This document shows positions 14,165-56,591 of a DNA stretch of 64,000 nucleotides, piece after piece. The stretch lies in assembly GCA_905250025.1 (NCBI GenBank), contig CAJNOJ010000068.1, forward strand, positions 124,001-188,000, read 5' to 3'. The first letter of the stretch is position 1, and the number at the start of each line of letters is the position of its first letter. A program made the position numbers and the translations under genes. Below the pieces are notes generated by a model, which was not told the DNA's origin, searched no databases, and saw nothing but the letters and a program-made list of their open reading frames with translations. This stretch comes from Adineta ricciae. Its lineage: Eukaryota > Rotifera > Eurotatoria > Adinetida > Adinetidae.

Positions 14165-16891
14165 ATGAAGAAATCGTTTGAATCGAAAGCATCAAGGTAA
14201 ATTCATTTTTATGAATAATTTGAATATGATGGACGAGCTGTTTCTTTTGAAGAAGAAAATATCGGTTCCCCGTCGGTTTGATGTTAATAGGATTAGTAAT
14301 CCTTGGTTTGATTATAGCTTTAATGTATGTAGAAAAGGCAATGAATCACCGTGACGTCGATCCATGTGAGTTGATAATTGTTTTCTTGATGGATGAATAT
14401 ATTTTACTTCTAGCGATAACATCGCTTGTAATTGTCACATACCGAAGTAATCGAACAAATACGAAATCAGTAAAAATTGCAGTTACAGATTCATTGGCGA
14501 CTGATGTACGTTTCTCTAGTTATTTTACGCACTCATTCGTTTGCTTTTCGTTCTTACAGTTTATGAAAGCTTTTCATTTGCACGGAATTCGTATTCATTC
14601 TGCTGAATTTCGATATTTATCTAAAGAAGATGACAAAATTCAATGTGAAAATGGTGTTGCGATAATCGGAGATTCTTTTCAAATAATATTTTCTCTGGAA
14701 TATCCATTTGAATGTCAGACATTCAGCTGTAAAGATGGATTGATCACAAAACTTCAATATGAAATCGCTAATCAGTATCATACGATGGTTTTATCGGAAA
14801 AAGTCGCCGATGGTGACATGCGAAATATTCTGTTGAACTTCTGTTCGTTTTACATCAATTCTACAGGTTGATAGATATTCTTCTATAGTACATTCATAAA
14901 ACTTATTGCATTGCCATTTAGGTGAGAAAAAGACGGGCATTACAAAGATTGTTGTCAATTCACTAGACCGTGTGGGTGCTTATGAAAGACTTCGAGGTGT
15001 AGCATATGGTCAATTAGATCCAACGAGTGCGTGCAACAGTATCATTACCGATTTGCAGGTTGCCCCGCGTAATAAAGCCGGTTTGGTGAACTATTCCATG
15101 GATTTCTATATTCTTAAACCAGTCAAGTTATTCGGTGGTAATCATAAAATATTCTTCGAAGTTAATAATCGTGGTCGGAAATTGTTCGGTAAATTTGCTC
15201 AGATATCAGGTGGAAACAATCCTTCGATGGTCAGTGATGTTGAGCGAAGTTTCCTTCTGAAACAAGGATATACGATTGTATGGAGTGGTTGGGATCCAAG
15301 TGTTCCGTCGACTGGTGATTCGAATTTGCTGCGTATTTACGTACCAATCGCAAGAAATCCAGATGGCACATCAGTAACAGGTCCTGTTTATGAATATATT
15401 GTGTTCGATAATCCGACAAGTACATCATACATGACTTCGTATCATACGAGTAGTGCAGACACGAGCACAGCAACATTAACGGTTAAACATCATTTAACGG
15501 ACACTCCGATAGTAATTCCGTCGATGAATTGGACGTGGACGAGTAGTAATACGATAGCTCTTTTACCTTTGAACACGCCATTTCAACAAAGTGCAATTTA
15601 TGAATTGACCTATACAGCCAAAGATCCATACGTTGCTGGCATTGGATTCGCTGCTACTCGAGATTTCGTTTCATTTCTACGCAGTAAAAGATCTGACAAT
15701 CCATTAGCTGGTGACATCAGTCGAGTCATATCTTGGGGTGTTTCTCAAGCAGCACGTTACATGAACGATTTTCTTTCGTTGGGTTTCAACCAAGATTGCC
15801 AGGGAAAACAAATCTTTGATGGTATGTTCAACTGGATGGGAGCTGGAAATGGCGTTGGTCTTAATTATCGTTTCGCACAACCGCAGCGTACGGAACGCAA
15901 TCGACAGGACCATTTCTTTCCCGAAGCAGTGTTCCCATTTACTTATACTATTCTTCGTGATCCACTTACTGGAAAAATTGATGGTCGTAACGCTCGATGT
16001 ATGCGAACTCGTACGTGTCCCAAGATTATGAACGTGAATTCTGCTAACGAATACTGGGCGAAGGCCGCTTCATTGTTGCATTCTGACCTTGAAGGTAATG
16101 ATCTACCCGACCCATTGAATGTACGTTTCTATTTGATATCTGGCACTCAACATGCTGATCCATCACCGCCTGGCTCATATGGAATCTGTCAGCAGTTTGG
16201 CAACACTCTAGATTCTACTCCTATTCTACGTGCGCTCTTCGTTACATTAGACCAATGGCTGGATGGTACAAGACCACCCCCAAGCTTAACTCCAAGTCGT
16301 TCGGATGGAACTGCAACGTTCTCTGATATCACCCATCATTCGTCTCTTGGCATTGGTCGTGTCTCACAACGATCATTGCGGTGGCCAACGATCCCTAATG
16401 TTCTTTACACTGGCTTGATTACCATTCGAAATTTGTTCAATTTCGGATCAAATTATAGCCAAGGTTTTCTTAGTATTAATCCAGTTCAGTCAACAGGCAA
16501 ATACTATTCCTCTTTCGTATCGAAAGTTGATGAAGATGGCAATGAACTTGCCGGCATACGACTTCCGTCTATCTCTGTGCCCGTTGCTACTTATACGGGA
16601 TGGAATCACCGTCGAAACGACTATGGAGGTAATGATGGCTGTGAAGCGATTGGTGCAGTCATTCCTTTTGCTCCTGATTTAACTACGCGAATGGCGAAAG
16701 GCGACACTCGCTTATCATTAGCAGAACGTTATGGCGATCATAATGCATATGTAGCAGCTGTAACTGTAGCTACCACTATTCTTGTCAATCAACGCCTGCT
16801 ACTGCCCTCAGATGCTTCAACATACATTAACAATGCAAAATTATCAATTCAAATTATAAATCATCAAACTTATGGAAATTATACTTGGTAG
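14165..16891 (+). CDS. Membrane-anchored alpha/beta hydrolase (Abhydrolase_10-like)
   Basis: Five exons: 14165-14196, 14253-14365, 14414-14505, 14560-14866 and 14922-16891. The introns are 56, 48, 54 and 55 bp, and all phases agree (837 aa). A basic N terminus and a hydrophobic helix at about residues 18-38 predict a type II anchor. Residues 45-181 are an unrecognised lumenal/extracellular segment. From about residue 182 the protein matches the mainly bacterial alpha/beta hydrolase domain family: GAYERLRGVAYGQLDP, an EVNNRG motif, GWDPS, a nucleophile-elbow-like WGVSQAARYM (Ser about 456) and a C-terminal ERYGDHNAYVAAV with a candidate catalytic His near 787. All four introns fall in the N-terminal part. 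The substrate is unknown; an ester or amide is likely by fold. Confidence 0.82.
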
Positions 16892-20882: not shown

Positions 20883-23800
20883 ATGAACAATATTATTGAT
20901 CATAGTAGTAGTCGCCACCGGCTATGGGCAATTTGGTCAACGTTCTTCACCATATTCTGTGGCTTATGCTGTTTGGGGACTGTAGCAGCAGTAATTGTTT
21001 TGGCTCTTATTCCGATCTATCTATCACAAAAAGGAAACGATATTGTAACTGATACAAGTATTTATGATAATTACTTATCTTGCTCATATCAAACAAGCGA
21101 CCCTGTTTTTGCTAGGCTCGTCAGCATTCGCATTAACTTATGGCACATCAACGATGGGCATTTCATCTTTCGAAGTGCGTGACTTGAATGCACTAAGTAC
21201 AGAGGTAAATACTCTCGAATGACTCCAAGATCATTGTTGTGTAAGCCTTTCTTTTCAGTTGAATAAAGCGTTTGGTACCAGCGAGATTCAAGTAGTAGTT
21301 GCGAAGTATGACTCTTCATCAAGTGGAAAAAAGAAAAAACGACAGTAAGTTCAACAGATCAACTCTCACTTCTTTCGAATCAAAGGTATCAACAGGACAC
21401 TTTTTTGCTCTGCTTCGCAGGGCAGGGCAGGGCAAATGCATTATATAACTATGTTTACATAGTTAACGTTTTGTACAATATAACCAGTACAATTCAATAC
21501 ATGTGCAGCCCACAAACAGAATAGCATTCAATAAATATGCTTAGAAATACATTTAGCGGAAGAATATTACCGGATTTATTAAATTTTCCTCGCGAAAGAC
21601 CGAATTAAATTTAGTGGTATTATTTATTTTTCGGTTGGTCCTCCTTTATATTACGGTTTAATTCGAGAGAAAATTCAATATAAAACTTTATGTTAGGGGT
21701 GTCACTTTGCCTGTTCTGGAGAATGGAAACGTAGATATTGTTCCGGTTCAGAACGCGGAACGTGAATAGCATTCTTTATTCTTAGGAACGGGAAATGAAA
21801 GTATCGTCTTCAGACATGCAAACCGTGAAATACGTATGTAGTTCGCCCAGTAATTAAATCTAGCAGTCATTCGATATTTATCTTAAGGTACATAGACTAA
21901 GAAACAGCAGCACTACTCGCAATGTTTCCTGAAAAATGAAACATGTTTTAAATGACATTTTCTGACAGTTTCTCTGCATTACTCGACCACGGTTATACTT
22001 TCAGTTCGATTATGCAATACTCAATTTTAGGTAGCAGAGTTGTTCATCCAACTATCCATGGGATGCAGATTCGATGAAAAAGACGGTTGATTGCAGATGA
22101 ATATCATCGTTTTGATTTTCTCACGAAATAGTTTCGAGTCAAATGAATAATAAGCTTCTTCCTTGAACAGCGATCTATTTTTAAAGTAATCAAAAAGCAC
22201 AAAGTTCAATTAATAAGACGTATGAACCAGTTGACATGTTCCTATCACAACGAGTCCTTATATTTTGTAGTTGTTTACTCTTTGATCTCATCAGAATTTT
22301 ATTAATTTCTTTTTCTAAAGATTGCTGTTATTTCATCTGAAATGTTCCTGGTTATAAAAGATTACCTAGGTCAACTATTACTTGATACAGTTGGGAAAGC
22401 GTTTACTAATCATATAAAATAGTGTTCGACGTTATTCGCAAACACAATCACGTTCACTGAGTAGTCTTGCATATTTTTTTAGGCAAAACAACGATTTTTA
22501 GGAGTTTATGATAGGCATGAATAACTAGCACAGCTACCCTGCCCTGCCATGTGGGCACCTCTATTTCGAATTATTCCATTCTAGAGCTCAACAATGCGAA
22601 CAAAATACGAACGTAATTGGAGATTTTGTCATGATTCAGTTTTCGCTGGACTTTTCAAAAGTATGCAAGACGTCAAAATGTCATCAAGACCTTATCAATA
22701 AAGTTCAGTTGCAAATCCGAAACTCTCCAGCAATTACTATTCCAATGACATTGGCGAACGGCACTACCATCAATACATCGCTACATTTTTGTTCATTAAC
22801 ACAAATCACTTCTCAAGGTCGGTATATATACAGAACAGGCGTCCAAAAAAGCAGAGCGTGTTGTCAAATTCAGTCCTGCCTTTTTTCCAGAAGAGTTCAG
22901 CGCATAGTAGGAGAAAGAACTGGCCTGTGGACACCTCAGAAAGGCAGCCACATAATATCTACAATACTACCTCACAACTAAGCAGTGTAGATGCCTTCTA
23001 ACGAGGTCAGATTGTTTAAGGGCACACAAAGAACTATTTTCACGATATTAATATTCACAATCTATCTGCTGATTGCAGGACATTTAAAACGCCTCCCGAT
23101 CGGATGAAAGACCTACTTTATGCAAATAGAGTGCACTATTCGGAGTAGTTAAACACACGCAGTTCTTTCCCAAATTACTTTACTTTCTGTTTAAGAAAAC
23201 TGTCTCGTTCTTTAGTTTCTTTCTGCTCCATCCTGACAGTTTGCAACTCGACTGGCGGCGGAGGCACGTGTGAAGCAAATGGTGGCGATGTCACAAATTA
23301 TAAATGTACAGGGTGTAATTATGGCGGTAATGTAATGAACGCACCCTGTCCAAGTAAGTGATACGCACCGCCGAATAAAACAGTGGATTCTCATGTCTCC
23401 TCTCTAGGTACACCGTGTGCATCTGTCAACTGTAATGCAGCTGCTGGTGGCGGCGCTTGTCAGGCAATTGGCGGTGGAAGTGCAAATTACAAATGCACAG
23501 GCTGTAGCTATGGTGGAGATGTAACGAATGGATCTTGTCCTGGTAGGTGATACGCACCGCTGAATAAATCACTGGATTCACGTGTCTCTTCTCTAGGTAA
23601 ACCATGTGCATCTGTCAACTGTAATGCAGCTGCTGGTGGCGGCGCTTGTCAGGCAATTGGCGGCGGAAGTGTAAATTATAAATGTACAGGTTGCAACTAC
23701 GGTGGAGATGTAACGAACGGACCCTGTCCAAGTAAGTGATACGCACCGCCGAATAAAACAGTGGATTCTCATGTTTCCTCTCTAGGTATACCATGTGCAT

Positions 23801-26800
23801 CTGTCAATTGTAATTCAGCTGCTGGTGGCGGCGCTTGTCAGGCAGTTGGCGGTGGAAGCGCAGATTACAAATGCACAGGCTGTAACTACGGTGGAGATGT
23901 AACGAACGGACCCTGTCCAGGTAAGTGATACGCACCGCCGAATAAAACAGGGGATTCTCATGTCTCCTCTCTAGGTACACCGTGTGCATCTGTCAATTGT
24001 AATTCAGCTGCTGGTGGCGGTGTTTGTCAGGCAGTTGGCGGTGGAAGCGCAGATTACAAATGCACAGGTTGTAGCTATGGTGGAGATGTAACGACTGGAT
24101 CTTGTCCAGGTGAGTGATACGCACCGCTGAATAAATCACTAGAATCTCACGTCTCTTCTCTAGGGACACCGTGTGCATCTGTCAATTGTAATTCAGCTGC
24201 TGGTGGAGGCGCTTGTCAGGCAGTTGGCGGTGGAAGCGCAGATTACAAATGCACAGGTTGTAGCTATGGTGGAGATGTAACGACCGGATCTTGTCCAGGT
24301 AGGTGATACGCACCGCTGATTAAATCACTGGATTCACGTGTCTCCTCTCTAGGTACACCGTGTGCATCTGTCAATTGTAATTCAGCTGCTGGTGGCGGTG
24401 CTTGTCAGGCAGTTGGCGGTGGAAGCGCAGATTATAAATGTACAGGTTGTAGCTATGGTGGAGATGTAACGAATGGATCTTGTCCAAGTAAGTGATAAGC
24501 ATCACTCAATAAATCACTGGATTCACGTCTCTCTTGTCTAGGTACACCATGTGCATCTGTCAATTGTAATTCGACCGGAGGTGAAGGCTTGTGCGTTGCG
24601 GGTGGTGGCGGAACGGCAGATTTCAAATGTATGAATTGTAGTGATGGGACGATAGCATCCAATCAATCATGTCCAGGTACAGAGAAAGATTCTAGTCGGC
24701 ACGAACAGGAAAGATGAAAGTGTTCAGTTAAGAATGTAGTTTGTGGAAAATTTGTCAAGTAGCGTTTCTGACAGCTGTATACGGGGAGGGCATCACCATT
24801 TTCAGCGCGTTGCTTTTGTGTTTTATTTTTCGTTGCTATTCAAAACTCTTTCAATATTCTCAAATGCACGTCACAGTACAGTTAATACTCAGCTGGAGTT
24901 TCGCCCATATCTTAAGATAGTTTGTAATGCATTCATCGTCATATGAGAACCTCGAGCGATAGAGAAGGACGAAACATGTCAAGTAGAAAAGTGACTTTAT
25001 TGTTGGAATACTTGTTTAAATATATGAACGATCCGGAAACTGAGACCGTTCGTAGATAAATGTTAATGATCCTCAAATGAGTTTAAATAATGTTTGGGAC
25101 ATTCTTTTTGATCGCTTCTGATTGTGTTTTAGCGCCGATCCCGCCAGTTACTCTCTTAGTGGCACATACTGATATAGTGGATGTAAAAAGTAATTACACC
25201 TGCCTCGTGACGATATTCAATTTAACAGCTACGGATAATTCCACAGTTAATAATGTTTGCGCACTTAATCATTTGAATGTCGAAGCCAATGGGAATGCAA
25301 GCGTCACTTCGACATCATCATCCTGCCCAAAAGTAACCGATATCCATTCCGCAGGAACAGCAAATGTTAATGAGGTATGCGCAATAAATTCTATGGATAT
25401 AAACGCAAACGATGGATCGGTCGTATCCATTAGTAAAACAGCAACATGTCCTCAGGTGATTACTATTACAGCTAATAACGCGTCTGAAATTGATAACATT
25501 TGTGCTATTAACCAAATGAATGTAGTAGTACATCAAGCTGATGGTATCACATTTAACTCAGCATCATCCTGTGCGAAAAATAGTAGTTTTGATATGGCAT
25601 TCATCGGTCCCGTCTCTAATCTTTGCGCCAGTGAACAAATGACTATTAAATCGATTGACACTGATAGTATCTCCATTGATTCAGTAACTGCATGTCCGAA
25701 ACAGGTTACTCTTTCGTCAGAAAGAACGACGAGTGTTACAAATCTTTGTTCAAGCCAACAATTGAGTATCACATCAAAAAACATGGGACCCATTTCTCTC
25801 AATTCAGCAAATGTATGCCCCGAACAGGCTGTTGTTAGTGTCCAAAATATGCAGGGTATTACGAATCTCTGTGCAAGTCAACAAATCAACATTACAGCAA
25901 GTAGCATGGGCTCAATTTCTATAAATTCAGTGACTGCATGTCCACAACTAGCTGTTGTTACTACCCAAAATATGGGAGGAATCACGAATCTCTGTGCAAG
26001 TCAACAAATGATTATAACAGCAAATAGCATGAGCCCAATTTCTGTTAATTCCGTGAATGAATGTCCAGTGCAGGCTGTTGTTACTACCCAAAATATGGGA
26101 GGAATCACGGATCTCTGTGCAAGTCAACAAATGACTATAACAGCAAATAGCATGGGCTCAATTTCTGTTAATTCCGTGAATGAATGTCCAGTGCAGGCTG
26201 TTGTTAATGCTCAAAATATGGGAGGAATCACGAATCTCTGTGCAAGTCAACAAATGACTATAACAGCAAGTTCCATGAGTCCAATTTCTATCAATTCAGC
26301 AAATGTGTGTCCACAACAGGCTGTTGTCAGTGTCCAAAATATGGCTGGAATCACGAATCTCTGTGCAAGTCAACAAATCAATATTACAGCAAGTAGTATG
26401 GGCTCAATTTCTATCAATTCAGTGACTGCATGTCCACAACTAGCTGTTGTTACTGTCCACAATATGCAAGGTATTACGAATCTCTGTGCAAGTCAACAAA
26501 TGACTATAACAGCAAGTTCCATGAATCCAATTTCTATCGATTCATCAACTGTATGTCCACAGCAGGCTGTTGTCAACGTCCAAAGTATGTCTGGACTCAC
26601 GAATCTCTGTGCGAGTCAACAAATGAGTGTTACAGCCAGCTACACAGATCAAATTTCTATTAATTCAGCAAATGTATGCCCACAACAGGTTGTGATCGAT
26701 GCTCAGTATGCAGGTGGATTTACCAATCTCTGTGCGAGTCAAAGCATCAATATGACATCACAGGGAACTAGGGAGCATTCTATGAATACGTCTTGGCCAT

Positions 26801-27198
26801 GTCCAATGTCAGCTTTTCTTAGCATTACACAAAATGGTACAATGACAGGCATTTGTGCAAATACCTCACTGATCATTAGTGGTTCTGAGTCGATTGTTAA
26901 TGCTAGTACAACCCAATGTGCCGCATCTGTCACTATCACGAGTACTAGTGGATTGACTGTCAACAATCTTTGCGCGACCGGTCAAATAGAAATCAACGTT
27001 GTAAATTCTACGGTGACTATGGCGAAATCCACATGTCCAACAATTGCCAATGTTGTAGCTGATATTTCATCGGTAGTGTATGTTTGTGCAACGACGGCCA
27101 TCAACGCACTTGTTTCGAATAGTGCGAAATTATATTATCAAGGGCCACTGAATCATACACAGACGAGCAATGGTGGTCAAATATTGGCATGGCCATGA
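20883..27198 (+). CDS. Mosaic type II surface protein: 6-Cys exon array plus 41-residue repeats
   Basis: Supported exons: 20883-21057, 21116-21204, 21259-21344, 22585-about 22817, 23240-23353, seven exons of 135 bp between 23408 and 24676, and 25133-27198. Introns 1 and 2 are 58 and 54 bp, intron 3 is 1,240 bp, those in the array 54 bp, the last 456 bp. The structure between 22818 and 23239 is unresolved. The N terminus is cytosolic with a hydrophobic helix at about residues 15-42, so the rest is probably extracellular. Next come an unrecognised ectodomain, eight 45-residue modules with six Cys each, and sixteen repeats of about 41 residues with two Cys each, ending GGQILAWP. The tail resembles a beta-helix or adhesin-type stalk; I name no family. 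A receptor, mucin-like coat or attachment role is inference. Confidence 0.7.
21419..22553. mobile_element. Putative non-autonomous insertion inside an intron
   Basis: The 1,240-bp intron 21345-22584 has a GCAGGGCAGGGCAGGGC motif near its 5' part (about 21419) and the inverted counterpart CCCTGCCCTGCC near its 3' part (about 22534-22546). Normal introns in this gene are 54-58 bp, so about 1.1 kb was added. No coding region lies between the termini, and I could not identify a target-site duplication, so class is undetermined. Confidence 0.45.
23240..24676 (+). repeat. Tandem exon-intron array, period 189 bp
   Basis: Exons at 23240-23353 (114 bp), 23408-23542, 23597-23731, 23786-23920, 23975-24109, 24164-24298, 24353-24487 and 24542-24676 (135 bp each), separated by seven introns of exactly 54 bp. 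The introns are nearly the same sequence (donor GTAAGTGATACGCACCGC, acceptor CTCTCTAG). All junctions are phase 1, so units can be added or lost without a frame change. Each module carries six Cys: PCASVNC, GACQA, YKCTGC and SCP. The middle units are the most alike; the first and last differ most. Confidence 0.92.
25201..27195 (+). repeat. Sixteen 41-residue (123-bp) repeats in one exon
   Basis: Unit pattern: C-P-x2-AVV-x2-QNMxGITNLCASQQM-x-ITA-x-SM-x-PISxNS, with Cys at positions 1 and 19. The first thirteen units are exactly 41 codons; the last three are slightly shorter or altered. Units 6-12 are the most alike, including at the DNA level, pointing to recent expansion there. Alternating hydrophobic positions fit a right-handed beta-helix with one turn or two per unit. 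Confidence 0.85.
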
Positions 27199-55956: not shown

Positions 55957-55962
55957 ACACCC

Positions 55963-55993
<31 letters not shown>

Positions 55994-56011: not shown

Positions 56012-56082
56012 TTTCAAATAGTTCAATTGATAGAATAGCCGACCGGTTATCGGAAGATGTGGGTTCGAGTCCTACTTTGATT
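56012..56082 (+). tRNA. tRNA-like cloverleaf, anticodon GGT (tRNA-Thr-like pseudogene or SINE head)
   Basis: Sequence folds as a 71-nt cloverleaf. Acceptor TTTCAAA/TTTGATT (5 of 7 pairs), D arm GTTC/GAAT with an 8-nt loop, anticodon stem GCCGA/TCGGA with loop CCGGTTA (anticodon GGT at 56045-56047, but C instead of U at position 33), variable AGAT, T arm GTGGG/CCTAC with loop TTCGAGT. Box A (TAGTTCAATTG, 56019-56029) and box B (GGTTCGAGTCC, 56062-56072) both fit pol III promoters. The two unpaired acceptor pairs and C33 speak against a working tRNA. Confidence 0.6.
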
Positions 56083-56591
56083 TAATGATCTACTTTAACA
56101 AATTGTTCGTATTTGTTAAAACATATCTCTGTGATTTCACTTGAGTAGCTTGACATCCATACAATCGTGGACAAGTGGAAAGATTTCTAATTATCGATTC
56201 TTTTATACCTATTTTCAAACTCACCCACACCCACACCCACTCTCAAGATGTCTGTAGGCGAATCCGCCTTGGAAAAAGTCGAATCCGACTCTAAGATATC
56301 CTACGTGTAAGACTGTCGATGTGAATACTATACTATATCGACACCACCTCTCACCCATATGTTTATACGATTTTCAAGATGCTTTAGATACTCATCATTG
56401 CCCTTGTATTTTATATGTCTTTTCACGGCTTTCTCCAACTAATATTTTCTTTCCTTATCTTCATTTGTGCTTAGACATTAACTATTTAATATCCAAACGT
56501 AGCCGAGTCATTTATCAACTCTTTCTGTTCTTGGAGAAGCATTTCTCGTGTTATGTGCAGTTCTGGCCAAAAATATTCCCCCTGTACGTTA
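56083..56591. other. Region downstream of the tRNA-like sequence
   Basis: Contains a second telomere-like tract (TCACCCACACCCACACCCAC, about 56221-56240). The open frame at 56321-56623 has no recognisable character. Confidence 0.4.

Follow-up and report, generated by a model that had tools for sequence, protein, structure and literature searches.

How do an exon and its neighbouring intron come to be repeated together with one exact period, and what does such a repeat mean for the encoded protein? This question is raised by a gene of the bdelloid rotifer Adineta ricciae (assembly GCA_905250025.1) on contig CAJNOJ010000068.1, hereafter C68. The window, that is, the whole stretch of 64,000 nucleotides under analysis, corresponds to C68:124001-188000. 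It harbours a series of small cysteine-rich exons which we call array A. Array B is the corresponding series in a second copy of the locus on the same contig. We consider it probable that the gene is modular with an array of 189-bp units that recombines with itself, that array B belongs to the homologous haplotype and that the array forms a spacer or stalk which tolerates changes in length. Splice borders were inferred from the sequence and from paralogs, and the genome searches covered 130,461,839 bases in 1033 contigs.

Exon and intron are repeated as one unit

Array A consists of eight module exons separated by seven introns (Table 1). Each intron is exactly 54 bp long and each of the last seven exons exactly 135 bp. 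The first-pass annotation had described this arrangement with its exact period of 189 bp, and both the coordinates and Tandem Repeats Finder confirm it (23297-24572, period 189, 6.8 copies, 89% matches, 0% indels, score 1915). The repeat period includes the intron, and the units show no indels between them. In array B, four of the five introns are 54 bp long and one is 56 bp. The six central exons of array A (the core exons) are 84-96% identical to one another, and the seventh 135-bp exon, A7, shares 61-68% identity with them. The introns had been called almost the same sequence. This holds for the most similar pairs with 98.1% identity, but the values within array A go down to 75.9%.

All exon borders of array A are in phase 1. 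Loss or skipping of an exon within the array keeps the frame, so that gain and loss of units are indeed frame-neutral as had been proposed. Likewise one six-cysteine module is found in each of the seven 135-bp exons. The introns of both arrays have GT...AG ends in 12 of 12 cases. If retained, every one of the 12 presents an in-frame TGA at the third codon, and a retained intron therefore stops translation.

Table 1. Elements of the array A locus and the scaffold join, numbered by position in the window
Feature	Position	Strand	Remark
Exon for N-terminal domain (FSLDFSKVCKTSKCHQ...), phase 1 donor	22585..22817	+	Borders inferred from sequence
Intron before array	22818..23239	+	From sequence; A/B divergence 9.8% over 399 bases
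Alternative acceptor	ends 23215		First module exon would start at 23216, +24 bp in frame
First, divergent module exon, 114 bp	23240..23353	+	9.6% different from first exon of array B
54-bp intron 1	23354..23407	+	In-frame TGA if retained
Core module exon A1, 135 bp	23408..23542	+	
54-bp intron 2	23543..23596	+	
Core module exon A2, 135 bp	23597..23731	+	Mosaic: head like A1, tail like A3, uncorrected p 0.013
54-bp intron 3	23732..23785	+	
Core module exon A3, 135 bp	23786..23920	+	Mosaic, break at unit position 98-100, uncorrected p 0.001
54-bp intron 4	23921..23974	+	
Core module exon A4, 135 bp	23975..24109	+	
54-bp intron 5	24110..24163	+	
Core module exon A5, 135 bp	24164..24298	+	
54-bp intron 6	24299..24352	+	
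Core module exon A6, 135 bp	24353..24487	+	
54-bp intron 7 (edge intron)	24488..24541	+	Array B state at intron positions 17 and 20
Last, divergent module exon A7, 135 bp	24542..24676	+	93.3% identical to last exon of array B
Intron after array, 456 bp	24677..25132	+	From sequence; A/B divergence 11.9%
Last located exon: intronless 123-bp (41-residue) repeats, TGA stop at end	25133..27198	+	Predicted all-beta, solenoid-like
Single N, scaffold join of the two locus copies	63031	.	Only N in window

The second copy of the locus

A self-comparison of C68:64001-295000 reveals that the locus is present twice, about 64-65 kb apart, in the same order and orientation. The longer blocks of the two copies are 87-95% identical, and two short blocks have 72.6% and 84.8% identity. 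Array B, which comprises four core units compared with six in array A, is found about 64.6 kb further downstream.

The second copy most likely represents the homologous haplotype, scaffolded in series, so that the two alleles within one animal or clone would be of unequal length. This assignment is based on the N at the joins and on the synonymous divergence (dS). All eight adjacent near-identical pairs, chosen by eye from the self-comparison, have N between the copies (six times a single N, once 5 and once 55). The median dS between the A and B copies is 0.138 for 12 open reading frames; 13 were tried and one had no match in B. This set contains the exon with the 41-residue repeats, which is misaligned (64% amino acid identity), and its omission gives 0.131 for 11 open reading frames. 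For A. ricciae, the published genome report puts the mean KS of homologs at 0.135 and that of ohnologs at 1.267 (PMC5916493). The median dS thus equals the published value for homologs.

Instead, the two copies could be a real tandem segmental duplication of 65 kb, in which case the six and four units would reflect the divergence of paralogs; as the turnover mechanism would be unchanged, this reading overlaps with ours. Both copies indeed share one scaffold and one orientation, and among the 15 matches listed for the SDR gene only these two places have more than 80% identity. In addition, the first copy ends with about 10 kb (C68 176.9-186.6 kb) for which the second copy offers no match longer than 300 bases. 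However, this unmatched end faces a region of the second copy with a 1,879-base N gap, a single N sits exactly at the junction, all eight pairs have N between the copies, and the median dS equals the published value for homologs. We therefore regard a segmental duplication as unlikely.

The assignment to the homologous haplotype has its own difficulties. Besides the unmatched 10 kb, six of the 14 N runs found on the examined stretch are not located between copies. The genome report mentions only two linked homologous blocks in the published A. ricciae assembly (PMC5916493), and contig C68 alone shows eight near-identical pairs. Finally, the counts of six and four units are taken from one scaffolded assembly and may be wrong. 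Within one array no two core units are identical, the differences amounting to at least 13 in 189 positions. The expected copy-number variation would correspond to the difference in unit number between the two locus copies, which in our view are probably allelic.

The near-identical blocks across C68:64001-295000 are probably serial haplotigs, which would inflate the number of tandem duplicates counted in this assembly. A similar pair on the same strand is found on contig C138 (209.5-212.1 and 216.5-218.8 kb).

Probable turnover of the units

The best tree calculated for the 10 core units places the A and B units on opposite sides of one branch (support 94/93, 96% of 200 bootstrap trees). Interior units are closer within an array than between the arrays. 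The edges of the arrays, on the other hand, are orthologous, as seen from the first exons (Table 1) and from the last exons A7 and B5, which differ by 6.7%.

Some units appear to be mosaics of others. In array A the best four of 56 triples have permutation p values of 0.001-0.005 and in array B the best two of 12 triples have values of 0.002-0.004; these p values are uncorrected and the triples are not independent. Breaks at unit positions 98-100 fall within the exon.

The introns carry a similar trace. Sites 17, 20 and 21 distinguish introns 1-6 of array A from all five introns of array B and delimit an array-specific patch of 5 bp (sites 17-21), with the exception of the edge intron next to A7. 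At the flanking intron sites 4 and 38 both arrays show polymorphism. Because the patch lies between two sites with shared polymorphism, short conversion-like tracts are needed as well. Unequal crossing-over on a genomic unit had been proposed as the cause of the array. It agrees well with the joint amplification of exon and intron, but on its own it does not easily explain a patch of 5 bp. A turnover by misaligned exchange together with short conversion-like tracts, with the array edges escaping, would fit these patterns.

We suggest that the turnover proceeds as follows. The repeated DNA would recombine with itself. Misaligned (unequal) exchange would alter the unit number in whole steps, and short conversion-like tracts would partly homogenise the interior units including their introns. 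Phase 1 at both ends would keep all length changes in frame, with the introns being taken out by splicing. The protein would thereby gain or lose beads of 45 residues between the N-terminal domain and the solenoid-like repeat domain.

Not all observations favour this mechanism. The core-unit tree is below the starred threshold, the introns alone support the split between A and B less (74/89, 72% of bootstrap trees), and the two arrays have nine polymorphisms in common and only two fixed differences. Furthermore, the dS among core units is 0.25 in array A and 0.29 in array B and therefore exceeds the allelic dS of about 0.13. As the core units diverge more than the copies of the neighbouring genes, homogenisation is only partial.

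The 123-bp repeats of the last located exon were also compared (window 25741-26693). Here 5 of 16 units have their best match in a unit at a different offset, one of them being a tie, and the exon has the same length in A and B (687 residues each). This array also seems to have been turned over and hence is no stable control for the six-cysteine array.

Should the two copies prove allelic, this locus would also be a short and countable marker of exchange inside a bdelloid chromosome. Recombination in bdelloids has been a matter of debate (PMC7749112). We tentatively propose, as a possibility rather than a probability, that the array, as every unit has an intron of its own, is a natural recorder of recombination in which shuffling, gain and loss, and patching in short tracts within each of the two homologs of a clone exceed the exchange between them. 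Exchange within a homolog could then be read and timed from one 1.5-kb amplicon; break repair following desiccation may be connected with it.

Origin of the introns

Near-identical introns are the hallmark of introners. On this count the introns of array A could be mobile introns which were inserted independently at equivalent sites of pre-existing exon repeats. We therefore examined the genome with an intron pattern of 31 bases and up to three mismatches. The pattern was found at 12 places, seven in array A and five in array B, and nowhere else; at this threshold there was no match on the reverse strand of the whole genome and none for the reversed control. The spread of one intron over many unrelated genes that marks introners was thus not observed at this threshold. 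Moreover, the exons of the arrays diverge together with the introns.

Module arrays exist at at least four places in the genome. The paralog on contig C896 (C896:5072-6662 and beyond) shares the N-terminal domain and contains three modules. Its two introns, each of 62 bp, are 93.5% identical and its exon pairs 69-72%. Exons 2 and 3 agree at 59 of the first 70 bases, and judging from this alignment the tract that was copied appears to have both its ends within exons. After its modules this paralog carries numerous tandem copies of a further domain (CPTGQTGITF..., recognised by eye). In the paralog on contig C566 four introns of 53-61 bp have pairwise identities of 43-57%, compared with 36 +/- 7% for a shuffled control. 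The comparison of the paralog introns suggests that exact periods mark recent exchange and were lost in the older C566 array.

In both paralogs equivalent module exons are separated by different introns, of 53-62 bp, which speaks against independent insertions into the units of arrays A and B. For the same reason intron gain by tandem duplication was set aside. Together with the restriction of the pattern to the two arrays, this makes mobile introns extremely improbable. C896 is apparently an independent second round of an amplification that contained introns, and C566 is an older and diverged array. Different stages of the process are thus open to comparison within a single genome.

It could also be asked whether the spacers between the exons are introns at all. 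Eleven of the 12 spacers are 54 bp long, which is a multiple of three, and they are nearly open, with one TGA as the only in-frame stop in 10 of the 12. Such spacers could be part of a repeat of 63 residues in which a recoded TGA is translated. However, all 12 spacers have the GT...AG ends, the last spacer of array A has a TAA after its TGA, one spacer of array B is 56 bp long and the spacers of the paralogs vary from 53 to 62 bp. In addition, the variable sites are distributed over the three frame positions as 6/7/11 in the core spacers and as 6/7/26 in the exons. A recoded TGA hardly deserves any credence. Thus, mobile introns and recoding were both rejected on the comparisons of introns, spacers and paralogs, and amplification of exon and intron as one unit is the interpretation that we retain.

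The modules and their neighbouring domains

The cysteines of module A6 follow the pattern C-x4-C-x8-C-x11-C-x2-C-x10-C. The best structural model of a module has a mean predicted local distance difference test score (pLDDT) of 77 (42-66 for the other four models) and a predicted hairpin around C3-C4. The canonical epidermal growth factor (EGF) domain has a C4-x-C5 spacing and a disulphide pairing of 1-3, 2-4 and 5-6. A Pfam scan of 21 modules found no EGF family at E <= 10, with filters that drop most hits above 0.1, and listed four weak families, none of which is a leucine-rich repeat (LRR). In a genome scan with the EGF profile PF00008 no place on C68 is among the 150 scored of 1446 candidates. 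The modules also had no match in the PDB by Foldseek (E <= 10), VIA-align 2 (1 chain) or a sequence profile. An assignment to PF00008 is not supported, as there is no profile match and the spacing is C4-x2-C5 instead of C4-x-C5. The modules look EGF-like, yet they fail the EGF tests applied here. True PF00008 matches were observed elsewhere, at C8:18-22 kb and C77:174-179 kb, where they are repeatedly spaced by about 345 bases; perhaps this is another array of exon-intron units.

Searches of protein databases with the 438 residues of the N-terminal exon plus modules, and with the spliced conceptual protein of 1117 residues, returned nothing at E <= 0.001. That these queries have no relative even in A. 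ricciae counts against our gene model, which is without outside support. The exon with the 41-residue repeats has only two database relatives. Both are A. ricciae proteins with 46-47% identity and without six-cysteine modules, and one of them matches contig C138 with 99% over 285 residues. This exon is modelled as a regular all-beta, solenoid-like structure with a mean pLDDT of 82, obtained with only three sequences. A Foldseek search of the PDB with the model gave 13 matches at E <= 10, the best with E 1.3 and none at E <= 0.001.

The N-terminal domain exon is conserved with 89% amino acid identity in the second locus copy and with 55% in the C896 paralog, and the domain matches the genome 30 times at E <= 0.01, its own exon counted. 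A distant copy (38% identity, E 1.7e-7) is located in another gene of the window at 14641-14850 and is also present in the second locus copy. On contig C439 the region of the N-terminal domain occurs twice in opposite orientation, at 11.9-13.4 kb (+) and 63.0-64.2 kb (-), about 50 kb apart. This inverted pair either resembles the palindromes known from Adineta vaga or results from the assembly.

Selection on the modules

Among the core units the ratio of nonsynonymous to synonymous divergence (dN/dS) is 0.19 in array A, 0.14 in array B and 0.14 between the arrays, and 26 of the 39 variable codon sites are third positions. The low ratios and the excess of third positions indicate purifying selection on the modules.

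The array had been proposed to generate diversity. On this reading unit number and exon skipping would serve to vary a surface protein under selection for variation. The frame-neutral borders, the similar splice sites and the unequal unit numbers of A and B would be suitable for this purpose. The selection analysis, however, does not support it. Splicing of very small introns is expected to proceed by intron definition, which makes exon skipping less likely. Furthermore, in the conserved open stretches scanned at 19.0-22.6 kb we found no convincing candidate for a signal-peptide or membrane exon; upstream exons and the start of the gene were not located. In our view a diversity-generating array is quite improbable. 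From the cysteine-rich modular make-up alone, the array would most likely be an extracellular spacer or binding stalk that is tolerant to changes in length.

Likeness to known systems

EGF-like modules are known from exon-shuffling work to be encoded in symmetrical phase 1-1 exons. The rotifer modules share with them the six cysteines, a short glycine-rich domain, the predicted C3-C4 hairpin and the arrangement of one module per 1-1 exon, but differ in the C4-x2-C5 spacing and in the lack of a Pfam EGF match.

The closest parallel in genomic organisation are the LRR genes of Tetrahymena with their tandem arrays of exactly 90-bp exons, for which unequal crossing-over has been proposed (PMC6564038). 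An exact exon length, one intron phase, a characteristic intron length, a variable unit number and older members with diverged introns are found in both systems. However, the Tetrahymena exons are in phase 2 and encode LRR modules, whereas the rotifer exons of 135 bp are in phase 1 and encode six-cysteine modules. The young introns of T. thermophila are about 257 bp long (122 bp in a subset) and the rotifer introns 54 bp (PMC6564038). Tetrahymena has about 72,000 such exons in ten species, with a link to a retrotransposon; in the rotifer we find at least four places in one genome. The authors of the Tetrahymena study state that no other eukaryote is known to them with tandem repeats so uniform in their exon and intron features (PMC6564038). 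The rotifer array adds a small-scale example from an animal.

Kringle IV type 2 of human LPA is likewise a genomic unit that encodes a cysteine-rich domain and whose variable copy number changes the size of the protein (PMC6314250). The LPA unit measures 5.6 kb and kringles are a defined family, whereas the rotifer unit of 189 bp consists of one exon and one very small intron. In Dscam, exons are also tandemly duplicated within one gene. They are mutually exclusive, whereas the rotifer exons are all in phase 1-1 and their full inclusion is in frame. Neither this gene nor rotifer arrays of this type turned up in our search of the open-licence literature. What the rotifer case adds to the cited examples is its modules, its very small unit and a bdelloid as host; the principle is already known.

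A further feature of the window

Apart from the gene, the window has an Rfam tRNA match at 56012-56083 (39.7 bits), which is absent from the output of ARAGORN in bacterial mode. A (CACCCT)6 run is located just before this match at 55958-55993.

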